Source: Desulfobacula sp. (GTDB taxonomy: Bacteria > Desulfobacterota > Desulfobacteria > Desulfobacterales > Desulfobacteraceae). From it: a stretch of 36,558 nt of DNA. Numbering within the stretch: position 1 is the stretch's first letter; every line of letters starts with the position of its first letter. The translations under genes were made by a program, and so were the position numbers. This document shows positions 2,389-22,019 of the stretch, in pieces. The stretch is taken from contig JANQML010000317.1 in the NCBI GenBank assembly GCA_028280105.1, positions 1 through 36,558 on the forward strand, written 5' to 3'. The notes beneath the pieces are model-generated. The model saw nothing but the letters and a program-made list of their open reading frames with translations, made no database searches and was not told the DNA's origin.

Positions 2389-2530
2389 AACATTTCCTTT
2401 TAAGCAACAACCTGTCATTCCAATGAGCGTGGCTATCTCCTGCGCTTTTAACGATCGTTGACGTTATATACATTGAATCCAACATAAAAGATACTGTTTG
2501 ATGGATTATGGGTCTCTTTGTAACAATGAA

Positions 2531-2563
2531 AAAAGGATACCCCGATCACTGGGGTATCCTTTT
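2531..2563 (-). terminator. Rho-independent terminator downstream of the ABC1-methyltransferase gene
   Basis: A perfect 13-bp stem, AAAAGGATACCCC and its complement, encloses a 7-base loop and has T-rich sequence on both sides. It sits 57 bases after the stop of the leftward gene ending at 2620, so it most likely ends the four-gene cluster transcript. It would work in both directions. Confidence 0.85.
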
Positions 2564-2619
2564 TGTCCCTGTATTAATCTCTAATGCTAAAGGCCCGGAC
2601 AAAAAAAATGAAGGGAATC

Positions 2620-4674
2620 CTATTTTTTTTCCATAACAATCCGGTGCAGTGAAAGTATCTTTTTGTTCGCCAGTTCCATAAAAATGTTTAGCTCATCAAC
2701 CAGATATTTAAACAGATCTTTTTTTATCACTTTTTGAAGAAAAGCCTTATCTGTTTCAATATTTTTCATCCATAACTGGTATGTGGGTAAAAGGTCTGAA
2801 GAATCATTCCTGTTCTCTATTATGTTGAAATGAGGGCGCGCATGCTGTTCAATCTGGTTCAAGGATACAAAACCGAGCCAGGGCAGCATGCCGGTAATCC
2901 GTTGGAAGTCCGAAGCATGCTTTTCTTCGAATAAAAATGCCGGATCAATAGTCAGGGCCTGAATAAATAATCTTCCCTGATCCACCAGACGTTCCTGGCT
3001 CCAGTTGAAAAACCGTTCCAGGCGTTTGTCCGTCAGCCCGACCCTGTTTTCATGCAAGGTACCCAAATGCAGCAGTATTTCCACAGCAGTGAGCGCATTG
3101 GCTTTTGGATACGTATTTTTCCCGGATGAATCAAAATCTTCCCAACTGGTCCAAGCCACATCAAGCCCTTTTTTCCGGCAGGCATTATACTCAACTCTAC
3201 TGATCGTAATTCCCATTCCTTTTGCACCCCTTTGCTCGATTTTTTGCAAAAGGCTGCCCCGTCCACAGCCCACATCAATGATGAAATCGTTCTTTTTGAC
3301 GTTAATTGAATCCATGATGAACTGATCCCGGTCTCCCCAGGCTTTTTCAGCAGATGATCCGGAGTGTTCAAACATGGCCGTCGAATAGGTTCCGAACTTA
3401 CCCAGTACCTTTTCCTCCGCTTCCCTGGGAATGGAGGCATATTCAGCCTGAAGCAGCCGTTTTCGGCGGGAATTTTCCATCATGCTGAATTCCGGATCAA
3501 TGGTATATAAAAACCCTTCAATTGTCACAATGGTCAGCAGCAGCTTGGCATGATAGGTTTCCAGTTGAACGCTGTTTTTTGAAAGAACGGCCATCAGTTT
3601 GGGCAACAGGTCGGAAAGGACCGGATTTCCTCCGGATTTGACGAAGTTTTCGTGGAGAACCCGATATGTGGCCTTATATATTTCCTGATTCGATCCGTCC
3701 GAGCCGTTGTCCGGTTGCAGGCCCCGGACAAAATATTTCAAAAAATATTCTGTGGCAAAGTCATAATAGCCTTCGACCATGGAAAGATAAAACGTCAAAA
3801 GGTGGTTTCTAATCATCAAAGGAACTTCATGCATCAATCCGAAATCTATCAGTACCAACTGTCCCTGTTGGTTCCAGAAAAAATTCCCGGGATGGAGATC
3901 GGCGTGGCACATTCCCTTTAAAAAAATCATATTGTCAAGAAAGAAATCGACACGGCTGGCCAATACTTTTCTATCCTGATCCAGCCTTTTGAATTCATAA
4001 GGCGGGATACCGTGAACAAACTCCATTACCAATGCCTGGGTATTTGAATACTCCGGAAAAGTTTGAGGTACAGTGACCGATTCATCATCGGAAAATCGCT
4101 CGGCAAAAATCCGGTAGTTGTTTTCTTCTGCACTTAAATCGGTTTGGGAGAGCAACAGCTCTTCCAGTTCTTTGGCATATCCTCTGAGGTTGATGATTCG
4201 TGCCCTGGGGGAAACCGTTTCAAAAAACCAGACCAGAAAAAACAACACCTTAAAATTGGCTTCAATGGAGGCCCGGATACCGGGTTTTAATATTTTGACG
4301 GCCACATCCTGCCGGTTTTTTCTCAGTACGGCGCGGTATACGACTGCCACGGAACCGGAGGCAATGGGTTCTTTGGGAAAATGGGAAAAAATCGATTCAA
4401 GATTTTGATCGAAAATCGTTTCGGCCAGGGTATACATTTCCCCCTTATCTTCTACCGGAATCGCATCTCTTAATTTAGCAAATTCCCGGATATAATGTTC
4501 CGGGATATTTTTGATACGCGTACTCAACACTTGAATGAACTTGATGTAAACAGGACCCAGTTTAATGATGGACCTGCTTACAAAAACAGGGAGTTTTTTT
4601 TGATTGAACAGCCGCAAACATATATAACCGGGTAATCTTGTCAATATGATAATCAATACTCTTAAATATTCCAC
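2620..4674 (-). CDS. ABC1/UbiB-family atypical kinase fused to a CFA-synthase-like SAM methyltransferase
   Basis: A 684-residue two-domain protein. Residues about 1-400 are an ABC1 (UbiB/ADCK) ATPase/kinase-like domain: LGPVYIKFIQVLSTR (about 39-53) stands where the family has LGPxxIKxGQxLSTR, so the KxGQ signature reads KFIQ. The alanine-rich loop reads IASGSVAVVYRA; the Lys of VAVK (127), HADLHPGN (257-264) and the DFG Asp (277) are kept. Residues about 450-680 are a class I methyltransferase with motif I DVGCGRG (467-473) and an ITISRVEY segment resembling cyclopropane-fatty-acid synthases. ABC1 proteins act on ubiquinone and other membrane lipids, so a lipid substrate is plausible but inferred. 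I prefer the GTG at 4672-4674, with GGAG seven bases upstream; an in-frame ATG at 4740 lacks a site. It is the last gene of the cluster, 266 bases after the dehydrogenase gene, so a separate promoter is possible. No transmembrane anchor is obvious apart from a hydrophobic N-terminus. Confidence 0.85.
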   Translation of the reverse strand: MEYLRVLIIILTRLPGYICLRLFNQKKLPVFVSRSIIKLGPVYIKFIQVLSTRIKNIPEHYIREFAKLRDAIPVEDKGEMYTLAETIFDQNLESIFSHFPKEPIASGSVAVVYRAVLRKNRQDVAVKILKPGIRASIEANFKVLFFLVWFFETVSPRARIINLRGYAKELEELLLSQTDLSAEENNYRIFAERFSDDESVTVPQTFPEYSNTQALVMEFVHGIPPYEFKRLDQDRKVLASRVDFFLDNMIFLKGMCHADLHPGNFFWNQQGQLVLIDFGLMHEVPLMIRNHLLTFYLSMVEGYYDFATEYFLKYFVRGLQPDNGSDGSNQEIYKATYRVLHENFVKSGGNPVLSDLLPKLMAVLSKNSVQLETYHAKLLLTIVTIEGFLYTIDPEFSMMENSRRKRLLQAEYASIPREAEEKVLGKFGTYSTAMFEHSGSSAEKAWGDRDQFIMDSINVKKNDFIIDVGCGRGSLLQKIEQRGAKGMGITISRVEYNACRKKGLDVAWTSWEDFDSSGKNTYPKANALTAVEILLHLGTLHENRVGLTDKRLERFFNWSQERLVDQGRLFIQALTIDPAFLFEEKHASDFQRITGMLPWLGFVSLNQIEQHARPHFNIIENRNDSSDLLPTYQLWMKNIETDKAFLQKVIKKDLFKYLVDELNIFMELANKKILSLHRIVMEKK

Positions 4675-4940
4675 TGATGTTCTCCAATGAATGGGGTCAA
4701 TGATGCATGTTAGTCGGTTATCGGGATACCCGTCCGGCATCCCGGTGCTTTTACATCTGGATATCGTTTTTTAAACCGCATTTTTAGTTTTCCGGAAACG
4801 CTGCCGGAACAAAGAAAAGCTTTCTGAAAAACGATGCAGGCAACTCTCAAACGATAGTGAATCCTTTTGCATTACATAAAAAAATGTAAGAAAAAGAAGG
4901 GGTAATTTGAGTCTGTAAAGAATAAGCTGAGGTAAACAAC

Positions 4941-6053
4941 TTATGTTTGTTTCACTTTTTCCTTTTTATGGGACAGCAATATTTCACGCCTCTTCTGTTT
5001 TTCCCATTTGCTCAGGACATACTGTTTATTTTGGTAAAACCAATACCCGATGATGTTTTCCAGATAGTCCCGAAGATTCGGGGCTGGAAACAGTGTGTTT
5101 TGGGGGGGCAAAACATCATCTGATTCCAGATAATTTTTATAAATATCTATAAAATCCATCATGGCAAAGACTTTCTCCGGAGATCCATCTTTAACCCCCC
5201 ATGCCTGTGATGAACGTTGAAGAAAATTCCACCGTCTAGTGGAGATGAATACCGGTTCCTCTATGGGTTCAAGCCCGTATTGTCCCCGGTAGCTGTTAAT
5301 GTTGCCGCATATATGCCGGAGGAGTTCCCCCAGGGATATTTTATTTTCACCGGCCGACGCCACCAACTTATACCCTGAACCGCTCTTGTGGCGGATAACG
5401 GTCCGGACAAGGTGCTCGAACTGGATAAGCAGCCAATCAATCGGGACGATATCGGCAAGGGCGTCTTTCCGGCCCACGATGAAAGGGACGGGATAGAGGA
5501 ATAAGCTTTTAAGCATCGGGTAGAAACCGTGGAATTTTGATATCTCCCCTGTGTCGGATCTTCCTACCACAAGACTGAATCCGAACACCCAAAGCGGCAG
5601 ATCAGGAAACGTGGAACGGATCTTTTTTTCTGCAATGGCCTTGGACTCTTCATACGTGTTCTTATACGTCCAGTTTTCAGTATCGGTGAAGGCTGTAGAG
5701 AGATAGATCATGGCGTTTTTTTTACCTGTTAAAGAAACCATCTTTGCAAAATGGAGTGAACCCGATACGTTTGCACCGTAAATATCCTCAAGTTTTTTAT
5801 TCCAGGAAACATCGGCCGCACAGTGGATCCCGACGGTATGTCCGGCAATGCCGATCTCTGAAATCGTGTTTTCCACATCTGCTGCATCACTTAAATCGCA
5901 GCGTATACAGACGACCCGGTCGTCATTGACTTCCATGGGGCGGGTTTTGCGGTAGAGCAATACAATCTGATCTACATCTTCAAACCCGTACATGAGTTTT
6001 GTGATGTCCGTTCCAATGCCACCGGCGGCTCCGGAAATGATAAGTCTTAACAT
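4941..6053 (-). CDS. NAD(P)-dependent fatty-acyl/thioester-reductase-like dehydrogenase (NAD_binding_4 type)
   Basis: A 370-residue extended short-chain dehydrogenase. The Rossmann loop GAAGGIG is at residues 8-14, followed by IRCDLSD, HCAADVSW, a Ser-Thr at 119-120 and the catalytic pair Y134/K138 (NTYEESKA). Segments such as LVVGRSDTGEI and the long C-terminal part resemble the reductase domains that release aldehydes or alcohols from acyl-CoA or carrier-bound thioesters, rather than sugar epimerases. The likely reaction, inferred, is reduction of an acyl thioester to an aldehyde, which the neighbouring aminotransferase could aminate. No carrier protein or adenylation domain is attached. 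AAAGGAG lies seven bases before the ATG and overlaps the end of the SRPBCC gene (11-base gap), so the two are translationally coupled. The C-terminus is very basic (about the last 30 residues). Confidence 0.82.
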   Translation of the reverse strand: MLRLIISGAAGGIGTDITKLMYGFEDVDQIVLLYRKTRPMEVNDDRVVCIRCDLSDAADVENTISEIGIAGHTVGIHCAADVSWNKKLEDIYGANVSGSLHFAKMVSLTGKKNAMIYLSTAFTDTENWTYKNTYEESKAIAEKKIRSTFPDLPLWVFGFSLVVGRSDTGEISKFHGFYPMLKSLFLYPVPFIVGRKDALADIVPIDWLLIQFEHLVRTVIRHKSGSGYKLVASAGENKISLGELLRHICGNINSYRGQYGLEPIEEPVFISTRRWNFLQRSSQAWGVKDGSPEKVFAMMDFIDIYKNYLESDDVLPPQNTLFPAPNLRDYLENIIGYWFYQNKQYVLSKWEKQKRREILLSHKKEKVKQT

Positions 6054-6064
6054 TTTTTTCTCCT

Positions 6065-6493
6065 TTACATTTTCTGGATTGCGTCCAGCATTTTATAGCT
6101 GTTTGCCTTAATCGCCTTGACTCCCATCGGGTTGAGCATATCCGCCAGTGACGGGATACCCAGGTCGAATTCAATCGTTAGGGTAACTCGGGCCGTTTTC
6201 TCAGCTTCAGTATAGTCGATCTCCCAGGCCCCTTTGTACAGATCGATGTCTCCCTCGATTTGTTCAAAGACAATTTTTTCATAGGGATAAAAATGATCCT
6301 TCTCCACCCAATTTAATTCACTTCCGTTTAAAAGAACCTTCCAGGAGCTGACCGTACCTGTCTCATCAGGACGGCAAGTGACTTCCAGGACATCATCCAT
6401 AAAATGCGGATACCGTTCAAAATCGGAAATATTCTTCCACAGGGTTTCAATATCGATTTCCTTGATTTCCATTGTTGTTTCGACAACAGGCAT
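6065..6493 (-). CDS. SRPBCC/START-domain protein (polyketide cyclase/lipid-transport-like)
   Basis: A single-domain 142-residue protein of the SRPBCC (helix-grip, Bet v1-like) superfamily. The pattern is typical: an N-terminal strand (VVETTMEIKEIDIETLW), a helix with the FERYPHFMDDV segment, a middle SSWKV...ELNWVEKD strand pair, and a long C-terminal helix ending AIQKM. Members bind hydrophobic ligands in a deep pocket and act as polyketide cyclases/aromatases, lipid carriers or CoQ-binding (Coq10/RatA) proteins. Sequence alone does not choose between these, but the neighbours (acyl reductase, ABC1 kinase, methyltransferase) favour a lipid or quinone-like ligand. GAGGAG precedes the ATG. The gene is 26 bases from the aminotransferase and 11 bases from the dehydrogenase, clearly one operon. 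Confidence 0.8.
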   Translation of the reverse strand: MPVVETTMEIKEIDIETLWKNISDFERYPHFMDDVLEVTCRPDETGTVSSWKVLLNGSELNWVEKDHFYPYEKIVFEQIEGDIDLYKGAWEIDYTEAEKTARVTLTIEFDLGIPSLADMLNPMGVKAIKANSYKMLDAIQKM

Positions 6494-6519
6494 AATTGTC
6501 TCCTCTTAAAATGTTTTGT

Positions 6520-7737
6520 TTATTTTCTGGTTTCTACTGCATCGATCAGTCTGTCCAGACCCCATTGCAGATCTTCATCGGAAATTACCGCAGGCGGATA
6601 AATCCTCAGGACCTCCGGGCTTGTGAGACAGAACGTTGTGAGTACTCCCTTGCCGTATGCCGACATCAGTGTTTCGGCAAGAATCTCTTTGTCTGTAAAT
6701 TCAATTCCAATCATCAGGCCTTTCCCGCGGATCTCCCGGATTTCCTCCCGGGACGCCAGCTCATGGTTCAGCCGGTCCAGGCATTGCCGGCCTTTTTCCC
6801 GGACATCCCTGAGAAAATCTTCCTGCGAGACCAGTTCAATTGCACGATTGGCGACTGCACATGCAAAAGGGCTGGAGGCATAAGAAGATGCGGCCATCGT
6901 CGGATTGTTCAATAATGCTCCGCACTCCCTGAATACGGTCATGGCAATGGGAACAAGCCCTCCACCCAGGGTTTTGCCCACCACCACGATATCCGGTACT
7001 CCGGCCATGGTTGCCGGAGACCAGACTTGGCCGCACCGCCCCAACCCTGTCTGAATTTCATCCATGATGAATATTGCCCCATGTGTTTTGCACAATGACG
7101 CCATTTCAAATACAAAGTCCTCAGGAACCGGCCGGATTCCGCCTTCGCCCTGAATAGGCTCCATAACGAAAGCGGCGATCGTCCCGCCTTTGAAAAGCCC
7201 TTTGGCAATTTCCACGCCTGAATCATCCGGGGGGATATGATCCACCGGCAGAGCCGTGTCCTCATTCGTTACACTGCCGGACGCATAGTGAGTCAGGCTC
7301 AATGCCCCGCTTGTTTTACCGTGATACCCGTTTTTCAATGCAATAAAATGTTTTTTACCGGTGGACAGCATCGCCGAACGAATGGCAAACTCCACACTTT
7401 CGGAACCGCTGTTGGCATAAATGACGTAACGCAGGGACTCCGGCAGTGTGTCGAGCAGGGCTTCGGCAGCGGCCACCGAAGGTTCATTGGCCAGAATTTT
7501 TGTCGATAATCCCATTTTTTTAAGCTGTTTTGTTGCACAATCAACAATTTCCGGATGCCGGTGCCCCAGCAGATGGATGCCATATGAACCGAAATCCAGA
7601 AACCTTTCTTCATTGTCGTCGTAGATCCAGGCGCCTTCTCCCCGGATCTCAGACGATTTCATGCCGGAAAGCTTAAACAACAGGGCATTTTTCTTTCCAA
7701 ACACGTGCTCGAATTTTTTCCAATACGCATTGTTCAT
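6520..7737 (-). CDS. Class III PLP-dependent aminotransferase
   Basis: A 405-residue fold-type I aminotransferase of the acetylornithine/GABA/omega-transaminase class. With the ATG at 7735-7737 as residue 1, the phosphate-binding NSGSES is at 109-114, GYHGKT at 137-142, the ring-nitrogen Asp lies in FIMDEIQTGLGR (D226), and the Schiff-base Lys is in VVGKTLGGG (K255). The family moves an amino group between an amino donor and a ketone or aldehyde. Next to an acyl-reductase-like enzyme, terminal amination of an acyl-derived aldehyde is an attractive inference. The chosen start has AAAGGAG six bases upstream; a longer frame starting 19 codons earlier has no site. This is the first gene of the leftward cluster. 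The exact donor and acceptor cannot be told from sequence, and arginine/ornithine-type substrates are not excluded. Confidence 0.88.
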   Translation of the reverse strand: MNNAYWKKFEHVFGKKNALLFKLSGMKSSEIRGEGAWIYDDNEERFLDFGSYGIHLLGHRHPEIVDCATKQLKKMGLSTKILANEPSVAAAEALLDTLPESLRYVIYANSGSESVEFAIRSAMLSTGKKHFIALKNGYHGKTSGALSLTHYASGSVTNEDTALPVDHIPPDDSGVEIAKGLFKGGTIAAFVMEPIQGEGGIRPVPEDFVFEMASLCKTHGAIFIMDEIQTGLGRCGQVWSPATMAGVPDIVVVGKTLGGGLVPIAMTVFRECGALLNNPTMAASSYASSPFACAVANRAIELVSQEDFLRDVREKGRQCLDRLNHELASREEIREIRGKGLMIGIEFTDKEILAETLMSAYGKGVLTTFCLTSPEVLRIYPPAVISDEDLQWGLDRLIDAVETRK

Positions 7738-7906
7738 AATCGACTCCTTTAAATCGACGTTTCCTTTAATCGTCCAGGCGATTAAGATCTTCATATCTAA
7801 TTCGACACTTACTGCAGCCAGGCTTTTCTATCTGTATATGGACATCCATCCGGTTTTTAAAGCTGACTGTTCAAAGAAAATTTTGAAACGCTTTAACCAT
7901 TCTTTT

Positions 7907-7925
7907 AAGTAACAAGTTGTTACTT
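7907..7925. promoter_or_regulatory. 19-bp perfect palindrome, candidate repressor operator
   Basis: AAGTAACAAGTTGTTACTT is a perfect 9-bp inverted repeat around one base, 170 bases upstream of the aminotransferase start. Size and symmetry fit a dimeric HTH repressor of the TetR kind. A second palindrome, CAACCATGGTTG, lies at 7939-7950. No regulator gene is adjacent, so the cognate protein is unknown. Confidence 0.4.
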
Positions 7926-8194
7926 TAGAGAGCAGGCTCAACCATGGTTGTGTCGTGTGCCAACGATTCAAATCAGATTTCAAACCTACTGAAAATCGGG
8001 CATAATTAATCCACCTGTAAGACGTAATGTCCGTTTGCCTGATGTGATTAATACTTAATTATTTTAATAAATTAAGATCGCAATAGCCTGTGTTGAAATA
8101 CGTGTTTCATAACTTGGAACAGGCTCGATTAATAAGAATTCATCAATAATATATTGATTTAAGAGGGGGAGGTTGGTATTTTAATAACGTTACG

Positions 8195-8213
8195 GGTTGA
8201 TATCATATCAACC
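8195..8213. repeat. Inverted repeat just before the orphan terminator
   Basis: GGTTGATATCATATCAACC has two 8-bp arms around TCA. In a rightward RNA it would fold directly upstream of the terminator hairpin at 8220, which is a usual small-RNA arrangement; as DNA it could be an operator. Confidence 0.4.
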
Positions 8214-8219
8214 TCACCC

Positions 8220-8258
8220 AAGAACCCCTTCAATCCCACATTGCGGGGGTTCTTTTCT
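8220..8258 (+). terminator. Orphan rho-independent terminator, rightward
   Basis: AAGAACCCC (8220-8228) pairs with GGGGTTCTT (8246-8254). An inner CAAT/ATTG stem (8231-8234 with 8240-8243) extends the hairpin, and the tail TTCTTTTCTG follows. The T-tract is only on the right side. No gene on the plus strand ends here: the nearest genes on both sides are leftward. It may end a short unannotated RNA. Confidence 0.65.
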
Positions 8259-8496
8259 GTTTATTGCCAAATAACAAAACCGTTGATTTTTTTATTTCTG
8301 AGAATGCCGTATAGAATGAAAAGGCATTTATTCTGAGCATATTTTTTTAACACAAAGAATACAACCTTCCCTACTTGATTCTGCATTGTAGTGTCAAGTT
8401 TTTTTTTAGTTAGCACGATTTTTTACGGCTCGTTTAAATCAGTTAACAGGTTCTATTTGAGAGGTTTTTGAAGGTTGTTGTTTTTTGAATGTAGGT

Positions 8497-10583: not shown

Positions 10584-13500
10584 TTACTCAAAATGCTCTT
10601 TTCCATTCTCACCTTTTGAGTCATCCAGAACCTTTCTGACTGTTGAGACAAAGTCACTATTGAGAATCGGTTTTTTTATAAATCCCCTGACCCCCTGTTT
10701 TTCTGCTGTTTTAAAATCAATCCGTTCGCTGAAACCGGTACAGATCAATATGGGAATATCTTTACGGATTGCCAGTAGTTCCCGGGCAAGATCGGTACCT
10801 AGAAGAACCGGCATTGTCATATCGGTTATCACCAGATCAAATCTGCCGGGATCGGATTTAAATAACCCCAGGGCTTCAACGCTGCTTGTTTTTCCTGTGA
10901 CACGGTATCCGATTTGTTCAAGCGTACGAACGCCCAATTTGACAATGGCCGGTTCATCATCCACCAGCAGAATCGATTCATTTCCAATGTGATCGGCCAG
11001 GGCGTTTTTTTTTGTTCTGCCTGTAACCGGTCCGGAGATGACGGGAAGATACACGCGAACCGTGGTCCCTTTTCTCTGGTTGTTTCTCACCTGGATGATG
11101 CCTTTATAGTTTTTTACGATACCATGGACAACGGATAGCCCGAGGCCGGACCCTTTGCCCTGCTCTTTGGTTGTGAAATACGGATCATAAATCTTGTCAA
11201 TGATTTCCGCAGGAATGCCTGTACCGGTGTCACTTATTTCCAGGCAACAATACCGATCCGTATCATTTAAATTCAATTCCGGTTCCGGCCGAATCTCCGC
11301 CAGATTCAACCGGAGGATTCCCCCATCCTGTTCCATGGCATGGTAAGCATTGGTGCAAATATTCATCACCACTTCATGAAACTCGGTGGCATTTGCAAAA
11401 ATGTAAATATTCTTTGGGGAAAGCCGGGTTTCAATTTCAATATTGGACGGGAGGATCGACCGTAATAATTTCAATGTTTCCAGGATGATGGTGTTGACTG
11501 CAAGGGGTTTATATTCCGTATCCCCCTGGTTACTGAATGACAGAATCTGCCGGACAAGGGCGGCTGCCCGTTTTGATCCCTGAAGAATGTCCCTGAGATT
11601 TTCCTGCACCGGATGGCCGTCGGGCAGGTCGTGGATGGACATTTCCGTAAACCCGATAATGGGCTGCAAAATATTGTTAAAATCATGGGCGATCCCGCCG
11701 GCCAGGGTCCCGATGGCTTTTATTTTTTGATCCTGTAAAAGCTTCAGCTCAAGTTTTTGCCTTTCTGCTTCTTCCTTTTTCCGTTGGGTAATGTCCTGAA
11801 TCACACCTGCAACCTTCACCGCCTGTCCGGATTCGTCGGTCAGAAGCTGTGCAGTGGACCGGATGATCTTTTTCTTTGGTCCGTTCACCGGTATGATCTC
11901 AAACTCAAGGTGATAGGGCTTATTATTTTCAATCAACTCAACCAAAGACCTGTGAATTTGATCCGACTCCGGGATACAGTTTTCCATTGTCTCGATTGTA
12001 AATTTTTTTTCTGCCGGATCAAATCCGTAAATTCTTTTGGCTTCATCCGATCCCCAGAATTCGGTTGTGCGCAGATCATACTCCCAGTTTCCCACTTTTC
12101 CCAGTTTTTCCGCTTTCTGAAATCTTTGCTCGTTCTCTTTCAGCCGCTGCTCCACTTTCTTTCGTTCAGCCGTCTCCACCCTGAGCCGCTCCAATGCCTG
12201 ATTCAACTCGTCTGCCTGCTTTGAGGCCGATCGATGCTGCCGGATCAGCAATTTTTCCCTGGACCCGTTTTCCACTTGTTTAATATGGCTTTGTGAGAAT
12301 TGATCTTTATGGTTTTCAAACTGGCTGTCATTAGCGGTTTTGCCTGAATCAATCCCCGCATACCAGGTGTTAAGCTTATCCTGGAATTCATTTTTCATCA
12401 GAGCCAGTTTGGCTTCGGCTCCCCAGATCTGAAAACAATTAAACGCCTGCTGCCAATAAATTTGTGACAGGTTTCCGTTTTGCCGGCTTTGCCAAAACCG
12501 GTATGCTCGTTCATTGGCAATCCCTTCCCATTGAAGAAATCCGTTTTTGGCGGCACTTTCAATGGCCCGGTCGTAGAATGATGCGGCCTGGGTATATTTT
12601 TTTTCGATCCGGTTCAGCTCTGCTTTTGCCAGATAATATCTATGTGAATGATTCTGTGAACAATGGATTGACCAAATCCGGAACTGCTCCATAGCGGTTT
12701 TCAGTTCATCCGTTAATCCATCCATCCGACCGTCACGGCTAGTATCACCCATATGGGAACACAGGGCCGATTTGATTAAAAAACGGGTAAACAGATGTTC
12801 GGGCCAGGGCAGCAGCCCTTGCAGCCCCACCGTATAAATCAGTTTTTCCGCCTCGTTGGAAAATAACAGGGCCGTCTTATGGTTATTCATCAATAGGTGG
12901 TAAAAGGCTTTTAACTCATTATAAATGCAGAGCACCTGTATATTTTCATTGTCTGATACCTGATTGAGATACGATGTGTCATCGATTAAAAAACCGGTTG
13001 TTGGTTCGTCTTTTTCAGAAATACTTTTGAAAATACGGATCCCGCCCTCGCACAAGTCAACAGCCCATTGATTCAGCCGTGACCTGCTGAAAACCAGATG
13101 TTGTTCCGTCTCCCGGATCAGATCCGGCAACGGTAATGCCCGGTAAAAACTGCAATACATATTATGGCCGAATGCATATGCGGCATATTGCAGATTTCCG
13201 GATTGTAATCCGATATCATAGGCTTTCTGATAATCCTGACTGACATCGTTAAGGTGTTTGAACCAGTGGCGGATCGAGCTGCCGATCATCAGGTAGAACA
13301 CGCTTTGGTCAGACGGTTCCCTGAATTTTGAAGACATGATACGCTCGGCCAGGTCGCCCAGTTCCCGGGCTGTTTCAAAGTCATTTTCAATCCATCCCAT
13401 CAGGCCGCCAAGGGCCGCATGGCTGTATCCGATCTGGGGAACAAGGCCGAAATCAAGCGTGATATTGACCACCTTTGGCACAATTACACTCCAAAGGTGC

Positions 13501-15434
13501 TGGTGGGTCCGGTAACAGGGCGGCCCCAGGGTAATCAGGAGTTTGGTAACCGTCAACATTTCAGTATCCTGCATGATCGGGCTGTCAAACAGGGCGGCAA
13601 TAGGTTTCTTGTTCAACTTATCTTTTATCTGTCGGATTTCATCATTCCGGAATCTTTCAAAATCCTGATCCGGAAGGTGGATATTGAACTCGGCCAGCGC
13701 CTGTCTGCCCGAGGAAATGGCCTGGGCATATTTGGCCAGCAGGGTGTAGTGGACGATCAGGATATTCAACGACTCCGCCCTTTCAACGGCTGTCCGTGTA
13801 TGTTCCATGGATTGCTGGATCAAACGTTCCGCTTTTTTGCGGTCCCCTTCCAAAAACTCACTTTCAGCCAGATCCCGGTGAAGTGTCAATGCCTGTTCAT
13901 AGTTGATATGCCAGAAGTTGCCGATACCACCGGCCAGCTCGTCTGCAAAATAAAATGCAGCCCGGTTGAACCCCAGCATTGCCTGAAAGGCAGTGGCGGA
14001 TTTTGCTTTAAAGGCGGCCTTCATGTTCAGGCCGATCATTTTTTTTTGTTCGCCGGGATCATGGATCAATTCAGCTCCGGCATTTAAATGCTCAAGGATT
14101 TCATACAACGGGGTATGGTTCTCTTTTCTGTAAAATTGGGAAAGAAGCAGTCTGCCGATTTTTAGACGGATTCGGGCGATCTTATCCGGTGCGATTAATA
14201 AAAAGGCGGCCTGCTGAACCCGGTCATGCATAAAGCGAAACCATTGCGGTTCCGGCTGATTTTTGGATTTTTTTTCAATACGGTTAGAACCTGTGTCTGC
14301 TCTAAGGATCAATCCTGATTCCCGGAAAGGCATCAGTCGGGTGCTGCAATCATCAGAAGAACAATGGGTGATTGTTTTCAGAGAGTCCAGATCAAAATGA
14401 TTCCCCAGGCAGGCGGCAAGTGAAATCAATTCACGGTTATCACTGCTAAAGCGTTCCAGTCTTTGAGCAAAAAGATCGACGATTCCGTCCGGTAGCTGTT
14501 CGTCAAGATCCCACTCCCAGTGGTTTGAATCGGAATCAAAACTGATCCGGCCGCTTTCATATGCATACTCAAGAAAGGCTTTGATATGAAACGGGTTCCC
14601 TCCGGTCTGTTCCCGGATGAGATCAACCAGACGATCCATCTCGTCAACCGGTGATCCCAGGGCCGCCGCGATAAGGGTTCCAATATCTTTATTGTCCAAA
14701 GGGCCGACGGTAATGACTTCAGGCGGATTTACCTGTTGATGCAGCTCAGTGATCACAGTATTCATCGGGTGATAAGTGCCCACCTCTTCACTCCGGTAAG
14801 ACGCAATGAGGAGAAAATACCGAAGTGATTTTTCGATCTGAAATCGTTTTATCAATTCCATGGAGGCGGCATCTGACCATTGCCAGTCATCAATAAACAT
14901 CACAACCGGGTGTTCCGGCAGGCTGACAGCTTCTATGAATTTTCTGATGACTGTTGCAAACCGTTGACGTGCTTCAATAAAATTGATGCTATTGTCTTCA
15001 ATTCGTATTTTTTTTTCAAAGATACGGTTGATGTCCGGGATGAGGTCAACCAGAAGAACACCCAGTTCCCCGAGGGACCTGTATAGTTCTTTATGAATTT
15101 TTTTTCGGGTGACCGCGTTAAAGGATTCGATATGGTACCATAATTTTATTAACGCTTCCCGAACGGCATAATAGGGCGTACTCTGGTGAAACTGATCAAA
15201 TTTACCCTGAACAAAGACGCCGTTTTTAGATTGCACCGGCTCTTTGAGCCATTGCACCAGAGATGTCTTTCCCATGCCTGAATGTCCGGGAACCAAGAGT
15301 GTGCCGGTTTGACCGCGACATATATTTTCAAAAGTGCTGAACATCTTCTCTTTGGCCGGTTCCCGGCCAATAAGAGTTTCCGGTATTTTCAACTGATTTG
15401 ATTGTTCCAAACCACCACCTGTCCTTACCTTCAT
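10584..15434 (-). CDS. Giant hybrid histidine kinase with N-terminal STAND-type ATPase and TPR-like region
   Basis: A 1616-residue cytoplasmic sensor. Order of domains: an AAA_16/STAND ATPase (about 20-380) with Walker A GHSGMGKT (50-57) and Walker B VVMFIDD (177-183); a long helical TPR-like region (about 430-1010); a charged coiled coil (about 1050-1110); a PAS domain (about 1110-1225) ending QDITQRKKEE; the dimerisation/phosphoacceptor domain with H1250 in GGIAHDFNN; the HATPase with NICTNAYHA, DTGTGIP and GSGLGLSVVHG; and a C-terminal receiver with D1538 (ITDMTMP) and the usual Lys in FIKKPI. This resembles the 'predicted ATPase' kinases of cyanobacteria and deltaproteobacteria, but lacks their N-terminal Ser/Thr kinase and GAF domain. 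No transmembrane segment is seen. The start ATG has a poor ribosome site; a downstream Met (31) would cut the conserved LIGRE. The receiver implies a phosphorelay to an unlinked histidine phosphotransferase, or internal control. Confidence 0.93.
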   Translation of the reverse strand: MKVRTGGGLEQSNQLKIPETLIGREPAKEKMFSTFENICRGQTGTLLVPGHSGMGKTSLVQWLKEPVQSKNGVFVQGKFDQFHQSTPYYAVREALIKLWYHIESFNAVTRKKIHKELYRSLGELGVLLVDLIPDINRIFEKKIRIEDNSINFIEARQRFATVIRKFIEAVSLPEHPVVMFIDDWQWSDAASMELIKRFQIEKSLRYFLLIASYRSEEVGTYHPMNTVITELHQQVNPPEVITVGPLDNKDIGTLIAAALGSPVDEMDRLVDLIREQTGGNPFHIKAFLEYAYESGRISFDSDSNHWEWDLDEQLPDGIVDLFAQRLERFSSDNRELISLAACLGNHFDLDSLKTITHCSSDDCSTRLMPFRESGLILRADTGSNRIEKKSKNQPEPQWFRFMHDRVQQAAFLLIAPDKIARIRLKIGRLLLSQFYRKENHTPLYEILEHLNAGAELIHDPGEQKKMIGLNMKAAFKAKSATAFQAMLGFNRAAFYFADELAGGIGNFWHINYEQALTLHRDLAESEFLEGDRKKAERLIQQSMEHTRTAVERAESLNILIVHYTLLAKYAQAISSGRQALAEFNIHLPDQDFERFRNDEIRQIKDKLNKKPIAALFDSPIMQDTEMLTVTKLLITLGPPCYRTHQHLWSVIVPKVVNITLDFGLVPQIGYSHAALGGLMGWIENDFETARELGDLAERIMSSKFREPSDQSVFYLMIGSSIRHWFKHLNDVSQDYQKAYDIGLQSGNLQYAAYAFGHNMYCSFYRALPLPDLIRETEQHLVFSRSRLNQWAVDLCEGGIRIFKSISEKDEPTTGFLIDDTSYLNQVSDNENIQVLCIYNELKAFYHLLMNNHKTALLFSNEAEKLIYTVGLQGLLPWPEHLFTRFLIKSALCSHMGDTSRDGRMDGLTDELKTAMEQFRIWSIHCSQNHSHRYYLAKAELNRIEKKYTQAASFYDRAIESAAKNGFLQWEGIANERAYRFWQSRQNGNLSQIYWQQAFNCFQIWGAEAKLALMKNEFQDKLNTWYAGIDSGKTANDSQFENHKDQFSQSHIKQVENGSREKLLIRQHRSASKQADELNQALERLRVETAERKKVEQRLKENEQRFQKAEKLGKVGNWEYDLRTTEFWGSDEAKRIYGFDPAEKKFTIETMENCIPESDQIHRSLVELIENNKPYHLEFEIIPVNGPKKKIIRSTAQLLTDESGQAVKVAGVIQDITQRKKEEAERQKLELKLLQDQKIKAIGTLAGGIAHDFNNILQPIIGFTEMSIHDLPDGHPVQENLRDILQGSKRAAALVRQILSFSNQGDTEYKPLAVNTIILETLKLLRSILPSNIEIETRLSPKNIYIFANATEFHEVVMNICTNAYHAMEQDGGILRLNLAEIRPEPELNLNDTDRYCCLEISDTGTGIPAEIIDKIYDPYFTTKEQGKGSGLGLSVVHGIVKNYKGIIQVRNNQRKGTTVRVYLPVISGPVTGRTKKNALADHIGNESILLVDDEPAIVKLGVRTLEQIGYRVTGKTSSVEALGLFKSDPGRFDLVITDMTMPVLLGTDLARELLAIRKDIPILICTGFSERIDFKTAEKQGVRGFIKKPILNSDFVSTVRKVLDDSKGENGKEHFE

Positions 15435-19839: not shown

Positions 19840-20277
19840 ATGTTAAAATGGACGGATGAAATGACGTTAGAAAAAAAAGAAGGGTTTGATTTTTGGAATG
19901 ACCACTCTATTGAGTTCCTGGAAATGGCTATGAAACGGGATTACCAGGAGCGGGTCGAAGCCTGTGACGGGTATGGCAGGCAGGAACGGTCGTGCGGAGA
20001 TGTTATCGAGATCTTTTTGATGATCAAGGACGCGGCCGTTGAAACGGTTTCCTATGATATAAAAGGCTGTCTGTTTTCTCATGCCTGCACCAACGCATTG
20101 ATCCGTCTGGTCAAGGGCCGATCTGTCGATCAGGCGAAACAGATCCGGCCCGAACAGATCATCTCTCTTTTAAAGACCCTTCCCAAAGAAGAAGAACATT
20201 GCGCGGTTCACGCCCTCAAAGCGTTGCACAGTGCGCTGGATGATTATGCTTTGAAACAGGGGGTAAGCCGATTTTAG
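19840..20277 (+). CDS. IscU/NifU-N-like iron-sulfur scaffold protein
   Basis: A 145-residue protein with the cysteine layout of the NifU-N/IscU scaffold: C52 and D54 in SCGD, C77 in KGCLFSHAC, and C121 in EEHCAVHALKALHSAL, which fit the three cluster-ligand cysteines and the Asp of IscU. An extra C83 and C42 are present. The N-terminal about 35 residues precede the domain, and the LPPVK chaperone-binding motif before the last Cys is not recognisable (LPKEEEHC). The family builds Fe-S clusters from sulfur given by a cysteine desulfurase. No IscS, HscA/B or SufS lies nearby, so it is an orphan copy with perhaps a specialised or regulatory role. Two in-frame ATGs (19840 and 19861) compete; neither has a strong ribosome site. 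It overlaps the stop of the convergent gene by four bases. Confidence 0.75.
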   Translation: MLKWTDEMTLEKKEGFDFWNDHSIEFLEMAMKRDYQERVEACDGYGRQERSCGDVIEIFLMIKDAAVETVSYDIKGCLFSHACTNALIRLVKGRSVDQAKQIRPEQIISLLKTLPKEEEHCAVHALKALHSALDDYALKQGVSRF

Positions 20278-22019
20278 GTTTCGGCCAGGCGTTGATCGTA
20301 CATAGACCCCACGCCATATTCATCTCTCCGCATGAACCGATCCAACGAGGGACCGATCAACTGCATTTCGGGATTGTCTTTTAAGACATCCTGGGCAATG
20401 CGCATCTCTTTGGTGCAACCCGTGCTATAGGTGGAATCTTTACCGATCCACTCGGGCGGTACTTTCTGATTGAGCAGCGAGAAGCTTTCGGCAATATCAT
20501 CCGTGGTCTGAAACCGCCAGATGTCGATGTATGAACTTGTCTGGACGATTTCCCACATATACATCAGGTCATCGGCATCCATGCCCGGTTCATAGTATCG
20601 GCTGGGATTGATGATAAACAGATTGGCGGATCGCTGATGAAGATATTCGATAAAGGTGGTCATTATTTTCTTTGCCACATCAATTTTTCCCGGGATTGAA
20701 CCGATTATTCCGCTGTAGAACATAACGGTCATTCCCTTATCCTTGGCCCTTTTCATCTCCTGGATAATCATATCCGCCTTTTCCTCCAGCTGGCCGTGCG
20801 AAAATTTGATGACATTCGGATGTCTGGGTTTACAGCTGATCTCGAGGGTATCTGCCACGGCAGTGATGTTGATGATGGTCTGTGTAAAACAAAAGTGAGT
20901 CTCTATCAGTCTCCTTTTCTGGGTGGAGCCCCGTGAGATGACACAATCGACCTCTTTGAAAATTCTGGAAAAGGTCGTGGATGCCAACAGGAGATTAAGG
21001 CTTTCCCTTGTGCCGTCAGATACCACATACAGATGTTCGTCACTTTTAAGTAATTTGACCAGATCGTTTTTCCCGATGGTTCTGTCGTGGATAAAATTGG
21101 CATTTTCCAATTCTTTGACCAGGGTCGGGTCGGTTCGGGTGTCTGCCAGGCAGACCTTTTTAAAACTGGGTGACTCCTTGATAACAACGATGACAATATG
21201 CCCGAGTTCGGCCAGGAATTTTGCAATGGACAGATCGGCAACAAATTCCCCGGATTGATCGGCCAGCCAGAGAATTTTTTTGTTTTTTCCGTTCATCAGC
21301 CGGTTCAGCCGGTTAAACCCGTTCCCTTTTATCGGTGTATGGAATATCTGTTTGATTTGATCCGATGACACCGTCTTTTTATTTTTCGGGTCCCATAGAT
21401 ACGGATGGGCAAGAACGGTGAGCAACCGTTTGAATTCAATCAGTTTGATTTTTTCCCTGAGTTGTGACAACGAAAGTTTCTCTAGATTGTCTAACGAATC
21501 GTTGACCTGGTTTAAAACCGTTTTAAACCGATCGGAATTGAGAAAATCGAATATTTTTTTGTTGGCCTCCTGTTTTTCAGAGGAAAACGGATTTTCGATA
21601 TGGGTTCGGGATAAAAATATCTTATACAATCTTTTTTCCAGTCTGGACGGAATGATCAAGCCGGTTTTTATCTCATCCATATATTTGATTTTTATCAGCT
21701 CTTTTAAAAACTGGTTGTCATATTCCGAATCAATGGTTTCGTCCACAAGGCAAATGATTTTATCATACACTTTCTGGTATCGTTTTTCTAAATAAGGCGG
21801 GTACTCCCGTGACATAATGGTGTCAAACATCTTGTCGGAGCATGGGTAATATCTCTCTTCATTTTCAGGGTAAACCATGAATTCAATCTGCTCCCGGGTC
21901 CCAACCTTTTTAGGATATGCAAAAGGATCGATGTGGTTGTTCAGGAAAAAGGCGGTAAACCAGGCATCAAATTCAGGATTTTTTCCAACCGGTTCGCATT
22001 GTTTTTTTTCGATTTTCAT
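20274..22019 (-). CDS. Uncharacterised protein with a DUF89/ARMT1-like central domain
   Basis: A 581-residue soluble protein. The centre (about 245-375) looks like the metal-dependent DUF89/ARMT1 phosphatase fold: ILWLADQSGEFVADL (249-263) in place of the family's DNAGE motif, VVIKESPSFKKVCLAD (278-293) at the position of the RGGPxxNDAxxxD segment, and DCVISRGSTQK (358-368) where the family has a KGQGN loop. The match is from memory of motif spacing and is not certain. One ligand position reads Gln instead of Asn. The first about 240 residues are charged helices; the last about 190 (from EEKADMIIQEMK) form a further unknown domain with Cys in TGCTKEM. AGGAGGT seven bases before the ATG makes the start firm. 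It converges on the IscU-like gene with a four-base stop overlap. DUF89 proteins hydrolyse damaged phosphometabolites; whether this one does is unknown. Confidence 0.6.
   Translation of the reverse strand: MKIEKKQCEPVGKNPEFDAWFTAFFLNNHIDPFAYPKKVGTREQIEFMVYPENEERYYPCSDKMFDTIMSREYPPYLEKRYQKVYDKIICLVDETIDSEYDNQFLKELIKIKYMDEIKTGLIIPSRLEKRLYKIFLSRTHIENPFSSEKQEANKKIFDFLNSDRFKTVLNQVNDSLDNLEKLSLSQLREKIKLIEFKRLLTVLAHPYLWDPKNKKTVSSDQIKQIFHTPIKGNGFNRLNRLMNGKNKKILWLADQSGEFVADLSIAKFLAELGHIVIVVIKESPSFKKVCLADTRTDPTLVKELENANFIHDRTIGKNDLVKLLKSDEHLYVVSDGTRESLNLLLASTTFSRIFKEVDCVISRGSTQKRRLIETHFCFTQTIINITAVADTLEISCKPRHPNVIKFSHGQLEEKADMIIQEMKRAKDKGMTVMFYSGIIGSIPGKIDVAKKIMTTFIEYLHQRSANLFIINPSRYYEPGMDADDLMYMWEIVQTSSYIDIWRFQTTDDIAESFSLLNQKVPPEWIGKDSTYSTGCTKEMRIAQDVLKDNPEMQLIGPSLDRFMRRDEYGVGSMYDQRLAET

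Follow-up and report, generated by a model that had tools for sequence, protein, structure and literature searches.

An aminotransferase-SRPBCC-reductase cassette that recurs in three phyla, predicted to turn acyl chains into amines, and an adjoining ABC1-methyltransferase fusion gene in Desulfobacula

The locus

The window analysed here, i.e., the whole 36,558-nucleotide stretch of contig JANQML010000317.1 from Desulfobacula sp. (assembly GCA_028280105.1), carries four genes that all lie on the minus strand and run from position 7737 to position 2620. They encode a class III aminotransferase (AT), an SRPBCC protein, a NAD_binding_4 reductase of the short-chain dehydrogenase/reductase (SDR) type, and a protein in which an ABC1 domain is fused to a CMAS-type methyltransferase domain. 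The first three form a cassette that recurs in other bacteria and that probably converts acyl chains to amines, and the fourth gene is not part of this conserved cassette. A sequence-only reading of the stretch had described an operon of these four genes, with close spacing of the first three and a strong terminator past the last, and this layout is confirmed: the AT/SRPBCC gap is 26 bases (6494-6519), the SRPBCC/SDR gap is 11 bases (6054-6064), and a 14-pair stem followed by a T-rich tail is found at 2564-2530. All four genes were assigned by Pfam domains scoring above the respective family cut-off, and the features of the locus are the following:

6520..7737, minus strand: class III (Aminotran_3) pyridoxal phosphate (PLP) aminotransferase (AT), 405 aa from ATG 7737; Aminotran_3 289 bits, 4.8e-86
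6065..6493, minus strand: SRPBCC/Polyketide_cyc protein, 142 aa; Polyketide_cyc 67.5 bits, 1.8e-18
4941..6053, minus strand: NAD_binding_4-type extended SDR, predicted acyl-thioester reductase, 370 aa; NAD_binding_4 76.6 bits, 2.2e-21
4741..4940, minus strand: gap of 200 bases between the SDR and fusion genes; no terminator-like site on the minus strand in the terminator scan
2620..4740, minus strand: ABC1 atypical kinase-like domain fused to a CMAS-type methyltransferase, up to 706 aa; ABC1 178 bits, 2e-52; CMAS 61.2 bits, 1.3e-16
2530..2564, minus strand: rho-independent terminator-like stem-loop after the last gene, 14 pairs, then a T-rich tail
7738..8496, minus strand: stretch upstream of the AT gene, up to the next same-strand gene; no Rfam family at the gathering threshold

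The AT start at ATG 7737 has AAAGGAG six bases upstream, and the longer open reading frame that starts at 7794 has no such site. The fusion gene may start at GTG 4674, which has GGAG upstream, rather than at ATG 4740, in which case its gap from the SDR gene is 266 bases and not 200. The terminator scan returned eight sites where 6.9 are expected by chance, and thus only the 14-pair stem carries weight. Another stem-loop lies near 8232-8251, inside the long 7738-8496 stretch upstream of the AT gene that holds no same-strand gene.

Recurrence of the cassette in other genomes

When plasmids were searched with the SDR protein, the list was headed by one from Leptospira interrogans (28% over 97%) and one from Nostoc (24.5% over 96%). 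In both stretches (labelled L014 and L015, L0xx being our locus labels) an AT gene adjoins an SRPBCC gene, with an SDR gene close by. Searches with the SRPBCC and AT proteins added Streptomyces plasmids, in which the arrangement varies. That of S. clavuligerus reads acyl-CoA dehydrogenase (ACAD)-SRPBCC-SDR with the AT about 6 kb off; those of NBC_01267 and NBC_00887 (L018 and L020) read aldehyde dehydrogenase-ACAD-AT-SRPBCC, then a VlmB-like protein, ketoacyl synthase III (KAS III) and an acyl carrier protein (ACP), without an SDR match; and that of BHT-5-2 shows a further order, SDR, AT, SRPBCC, together with a FemAB/GNAT-like gene. Altogether, the six plasmid loci contain AT in 6/6, SDR in 4/6 and ACAD in 5/6. 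The plasmid SDR matches amounted to 42 records, three loci of which were inspected.

For an independent draw, three SRPBCC proteins, one of them from Streptomyces, were aligned and the alignment was run against species genomes, a design that biases hits toward actinomycetes. Sixty stretches matched and 20 passed, giving 20 loci in 19 genomes (two from one strain), all of them actinomycetes. Matches to the window AT lie within 10 kb in 17 of the 20 loci and matches to the window SDR in 19 (E 1e-3); the 13 class III AT matches in the 5.93 Mb of the host genome give a chance expectation of about 0.04 per 20-kb stretch, a host-based and not an actinomycete figure. A library of cluster proteins applied at 1e-8 (it holds L014, L015, L017 and L018 proteins, so that those four plasmid rows match themselves) placed AT and SDR together in 16/20 loci and ACAD in 19/20, and found a nucleotidyltransferase-like protein in 11, an L017-type methyltransferase in eight and a GNAT-like protein in seven. 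The loci without an AT match are L021, L025 (a 4-kb contig) and L040, and the one without an SDR match is L027. AT, SRPBCC and SDR thus make up a recurring cassette, present in Spirochaetota, Cyanobacteriota and Actinomycetota, which also sits in antibiotic-type gene clusters of unrelated bacteria, some of them azoxy-type. Of the 61 proteins from four annotated clusters that were compared with the operon, only the AT, SRPBCC and SDR proteins gave matches. The sequence-only reading had proposed genome co-occurrence of the four families as a check; three of them travel together and the ABC1-CMAS gene does not.

Several of these clusters have other notable features. The L. interrogans plasmid p3 stretch (L014:1493-15116) looks like a natural-product cluster, with MazG, an AIR-synthase-related protein, HisG, glycosyltransferases, a GMC oxidoreductase, ACAD, AT, SRPBCC, a nucleotidyltransferase-like protein and SDR. 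A protein that matches a nucleotidyltransferase family below threshold and a small unknown protein accompany the cassette both there (L014:12448-13979) and in L017 (L017:10200-11899). In the cassette cluster of the Nostoc C052 plasmid, a nitric oxide synthase oxygenase gene (L015:15045-16214) stands between two SDR genes.

Ancestry of the aminotransferase

Among 29 class III aminotransferases placed in a tree, that of the window groups with 12 cassette ATs (99/98), while ten host class III ATs, ArgD, AstC and LysJ fall outside and E. coli PatA comes next (84/70). The clade is kept (99/97) after removal of two long controls, and forcing the window AT out of it costs 8 log units (approximately unbiased test, p-AU 0.031). 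Inside the clade, the window AT groups with the rows of Leptospira, of Nocardiopsis and of the L017 and L031 types (97/95). The tree included 12 of the 23 cassette ATs (6/17 genome and 6/6 plasmid); it left out L069 and L070, partial ATs of the host, and used two fused proteins trimmed to 430 residues and one long open reading frame trimmed to 470. The cassette group was set by gene context before the trees were made; the ArgD test group was chosen once the first tree was known. An arginine-pathway transaminase had been named beforehand as an outcome that would overturn acyl-chain amination, and it is not borne out: placement of the window AT with ArgD/AstC is rejected at a cost of 48 log units (p-AU 0.00138, i.e., 0.0014), and the window AT does not reach the NCBIfam argD and astC cut-offs. 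Its nearest solved chain by sequence is the putrescine aminotransferase 4uox. In a three-row alignment of cassette proteins D226 and K255 are invariant, and we take both to have catalytic-type roles.

Reductase or epimerase

The third protein carries the Gly motif GAAGGIG, and S119, Y134 and K138 are invariant over ten cassette rows. It is predicted to be an acyl-thioester reductase, mainly on the basis of its family profile. When the profile of ten cassette SDRs was compared with solved chains, the terminal reductase domain of MxaA came first (1.7e-25), followed by a polyketide synthase (PKS) reductase (1e-21) and by GOX2253 and the AusA reductase (3.4e-15), with nucleotide-sugar enzymes from 1.6e-14 on. 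A model built from 16 rows (predicted local distance difference test score, pLDDT, 75; predicted template modelling score, pTM, 0.78) also found the MxaA R domain first in a fold search (6.9e-12); the single-sequence model (pLDDT 36) was not usable. In the SDR tree, which holds 9 of the 23 cassette SDRs, the window protein, on a long branch, joins the Leptospira and actinomycete cassette SDRs at a node that is not starred (88/90), and the Nostoc, BHT-5-2 and L040 SDRs form another clade.

The sequence-only reading had accepted that a sugar epimerase at this position would overturn it. If the SDR were a sugar- or sterol-type epimerase/dehydrogenase, the cassette would make an amino sugar or another non-alkyl amino compound. 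The Pfam models Epimerase (26.7 bits), 3Beta_HSD (25.1) and KR (23.2) all score above their cut-offs, and epimerase folds are close in the fold search, where sugar epimerases and dehydratases stand only about 15-fold behind MxaA, so that fold alone does not decide between a reductase and a sugar enzyme. Against this, NAD_binding_4 is the top score at 76.6 bits, the family profile prefers thioester reductases and the operon contains no nucleotide-sugar gene. We thus regard an epimerase as improbable: the profile sides with thioester reductases, even if the fold does not exclude sugar enzymes.

The SRPBCC protein

Six cassette relatives of the SRPBCC protein are 26-39% identical to it, and 13 columns, including W51, W62, E64, D82 and W90, are invariant over the seven rows that include the window protein. 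Identity is 39% with S. clavuligerus, 34% with Leptospira and 26-29% with the Nostoc, BHT-5-2 and azoxy-type clusters, and thus runs the same way as the groupings of the AT and SDR trees. In L018 and L020 the SRPBCC gene is kept beside the AT gene although the SDR is replaced there by an aldehyde dehydrogenase, which suggests that the SRPBCC protein serves the aldehyde/amine step. L040 argues against a strict SRPBCC-AT link, as it matches SRPBCC and SDR but not AT.

The ABC1-CMAS fusion gene

Neither half of the fusion protein is matched in the 26 cassette loci (0/26), and searches of 57 relatives, 296 other genomes of the phylum and the plasmid collection gave no full-length match. Among 58 genomes (host included), 50 match the protein at 1e-20; the matches in the relatives are confined to query residues 25-454, almost wholly in the ABC1 half, and in plasmids 0/153 matching records cover 80% of the protein. 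ABC1-CMAS is an orphan fusion within the collections searched. It is not part of the conserved cassette, to which it is tied by position only, and the earlier view of four genes as one conserved set does not stand.

How the fourth gene relates to the other three can be read in several ways. It may be an unrelated neighbour, i.e., a separately transcribed lipid methyltransferase with an ABC1 module next to a cassette of only three genes, which is compatible with acyl-to-amine conversion. We give this nearly an even chance: the gap of 200 or 266 bases contrasts with 26 and 11 bases within the cassette, and the fusion has no match with the cassette elsewhere (0/26 loci), but the gene lies on the same strand, with no terminator-like site between SDR and fusion and a strong terminator after the fusion gene. 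At the other end, the operon could make a methylated long-chain amine lipid by an undescribed pathway, in which the cassette would feed the fusion, and a lipid-handling domain powered by ATP would offer the amine or acyl chain to the methyltransferase domain of the same protein. We think this unlikely; the methylation that the sequence-only reading had added to amination is suggested by gene position only.

The role of ABC1 proteins in lipid metabolism is still debated. The ABC1 half keeps HADLHPGN and DFG, has KFIQ where six of seven compared relatives have KxGQ, and its loop reads ASGSVAVV; the UbiB/COQ8 motif set (KxGQ, Ala-rich ASASxGQV loop, HADxHPGN, DFG) is thus not present in full. In the CMAS domain, YST replaces the YSC of 7qos and the YTC of 8raq, and so lacks the Cys that presumably serves cyclopropane synthases. 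These features bear on another explanation, in which the operon modifies a quinone or polyprenyl lipid: a UbiB-like ABC1 and a COQ10-like SRPBCC protein would handle a ring lipid that the CMAS-type domain methylates and the AT aminates. The ABC1 half does match the UbiB model, at 218 bits and under the cut-off of 487.55, and PF03364 is the Pfam family to which COQ10-like proteins belong. However, AT, SRPBCC and SDR recur without either fusion half (0/26 loci), the cassette elsewhere adjoins ketosynthase, ACP, ACAD and FemAB-like genes, and KFIQ departs from the KxGQ of 6/7 relatives. Quinone modification is thus very improbable.

Proposed pathway and comparison with known systems

Beyond the observed gene order, families, conserved catalytic-type residues, co-occurrence and ancestry shared by the window AT with cassette ATs, we infer a substrate, a direction and a product for the cassette, as well as a role for the SRPBCC protein and any part for the fourth gene. 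We find it fairly probable that AT, SRPBCC and SDR constitute a compact acyl-to-amine cassette. In a first step, the SDR would draw on NAD(P)H to reduce acyl-ACP or acyl-CoA, as the acyl thioester, to an aldehyde, and in a second the class III AT would turn this aldehyde into a primary amine with an amino-acid donor. The SRPBCC protein probably binds the hydrophobic chain and passes along the intermediate. Methylation or handling of the lipid at the membrane may follow, carried out by the ABC1-CMAS fusion that is encoded downstream. The order from acyl thioester to aldehyde to amine fits the families, the ACP and ketosynthase genes in L031 and the PtTamH and Ady2/Ady4 precedents. Acyl-chain amination, already proposed by the sequence-only reading, is supported by the co-occurrence of the three genes in three phyla, by the rejection of ArgD/AstC and by an SDR family that is nearest to thioester reductases.

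A number of observations weigh against this proposal. The best NCBIfam score of the window AT is for the argD subfamily (252 bits, cut-off 410); its branch is long (1.6) and its exact place in the clade appears unsure; and fused aminotransferases of Haematobacter (177 bits) and Rhodovulum (166), which lie in non-cassette contexts, score against it much as some cassette ATs do (174-177). Searched by itself, the window SDR has no match among solved chains at E 0.01, it sits on a long branch at a node that is not starred, and a relative of it on a Pantoea plasmid has no cassette around it. The 20 genome loci are mostly close kin with about four architectures, and are not independent. Finally, the operon lacks an acyl carrier or ligase, and the window has no match to three cassette ACADs, though ACAD occurs in 19/20 genome loci; one ACAD query found in the host genome only a 20%-identical protein (E 1e-5).

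That a reductase and a transaminase can together turn fatty chains into amines is already known for a few natural products. In tambjamine YP1 biosynthesis of Pseudoalteromonas tunicata, PMC9594044 describes how PtTamH (with PtTamA) uses a thioester reductase and a class III transaminase to bring fatty acyl-ACP to the aldehyde and then the fatty amine, with L-Glu as donor. The cassette shares this logic with PtTamH, a likeness of logic and not of descent. PtTamH is one fused protein, and the authors of PMC9594044 compare its reductase with acyl-ACP reductases that have a putative catalytic cysteine; the window, in contrast, has separate genes, a NAD_binding_4 SDR and an extra SRPBCC protein. 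For azodyrecin, the authors of PMC9379638 propose that Ady2/Ady4 take a fatty acid to an aldehyde and then an amine by means of a dehydrogenase and a PLP transaminase. The pairing of AT-SRPBCC with aldehyde dehydrogenase, VlmB-like protein, KAS III and ACP in L018 and L020 fits this order. Closest among solved relatives of the SDR family by profile is the MxaA reductase domain of myxalamid biosynthesis (4u7w), which is, in contrast, a domain of a PKS-nonribosomal peptide synthetase and shares 17% identity with the window SDR in the fold alignment.

The L018/L020 ATs belong to the same 13-row clade as the window AT and likewise lie beside SRPBCC. These azoxy-type clusters differ from the window by their aldehyde dehydrogenase, VlmB-like protein, KAS III and ACP, and in L018 also by a seryl-tRNA ligase. 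The VlmB-like protein of L018 matches AurF below cut-off, and its DUF2156 protein is an LPG_synthase_C transferase, a type that we take to be linked to VlmA; the presence of both suggests that L018 encodes an azoxy pathway, the role of VlmB being taken from PMC11705231. Neither protein has a window match at E 0.01, nor does any other L018 protein apart from AT and SRPBCC, and the window thus lacks these marks of an azoxy pathway. The Streptomyces L017 and L031 types, Nocardiopsis L038, Leptospira p3 L014 and Nostoc L015 are uncharacterised clusters with the same three families as the window. The window AT (97/95) and, at a node that is not starred, the window SDR (88/90) group with members of L014, L017, L031/L036 and L038, and those of Nostoc belong to a second group. 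These clusters add ACAD and, by type, nucleotidyltransferase-like or FemAB-like proteins, transporters or glycosyltransferases; the window is without these and has the ABC1-CMAS fusion instead. The nucleotidyltransferase-like partner has no match in the host genome in a search run without a positive control.

No description of the AT-SRPBCC-SDR cassette was found in open-licence PubMed Central papers (subscription papers lie mostly outside this search). The earlier statement that no described system has this set holds for the set including the fusion in open-access papers, and not for the chemistry itself, which is published for PtTamH (PMC9594044) and proposed for Ady2/Ady4 (PMC9379638). The cassette connects the present host with azoxy-type clusters of Streptomyces and with one plasmid cluster each of Leptospira and Nostoc. 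It provides a compact testable enzyme set and a marker for mining amine products, and a natural ABC1-methyltransferase fusion would give a direct handle on the role of ABC1 in lipid metabolism.

Distribution among relatives and genomic context

The operon is rare. In the 58 genomes (host included), the SDR search found five others at E 1e-3, with 28-38% identity across part of the query; two of these relatives, L006 and L009, have a neighbour that looks by eye like an acyl-CoA synthetase. The SDRs of L006-L011 belong to a clade separate from the window SDR. A strict search of 297 phylum genomes (host included) gave one other SDR (1e-12; limit 1e-8), no other AT (limit 1e-60, at which distant ATs would be missed) and no other fusion (limit 1e-50). 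An SRPBCC profile run on 395 phylum genomes (host included) gave five others at 37-50 bits; the seven loci of these matches show no cassette AT or SDR within about 1.5 kb, and two have a ketosynthase-like match. A second cassette was thus seen neither among 57 relatives (SDR) nor among 296 to 394 other phylum genomes (SDR, AT, SRPBCC). Phages gave no SRPBCC match and viral contigs no AT relative.

The RNase H neighbour of the operon is present in three genus members (58-71%), whose RNase H stretches, one of which ends 2.7 kb upstream, do not hold the operon genes. Contamination of the contig is not favoured, the window PurB being 72-80% identical in 16 of 17 genus members searched. The content of G and C at third codon positions (GC3) is 0.49-0.56 in the operon and 0.42-0.59 in other window genes. 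PurB makes the contig look native, and the GC values give no sign that the operon is recent. Elsewhere in the window, positions 20274-22019 (minus strand) encode a 581-aa protein with an ARMT1-like damage-control phosphatase domain (43.7 bits), and positions 10584-15434 (minus strand) a 1616-aa hybrid protein with AAA ATPase, PAS, histidine kinase and receiver domains.

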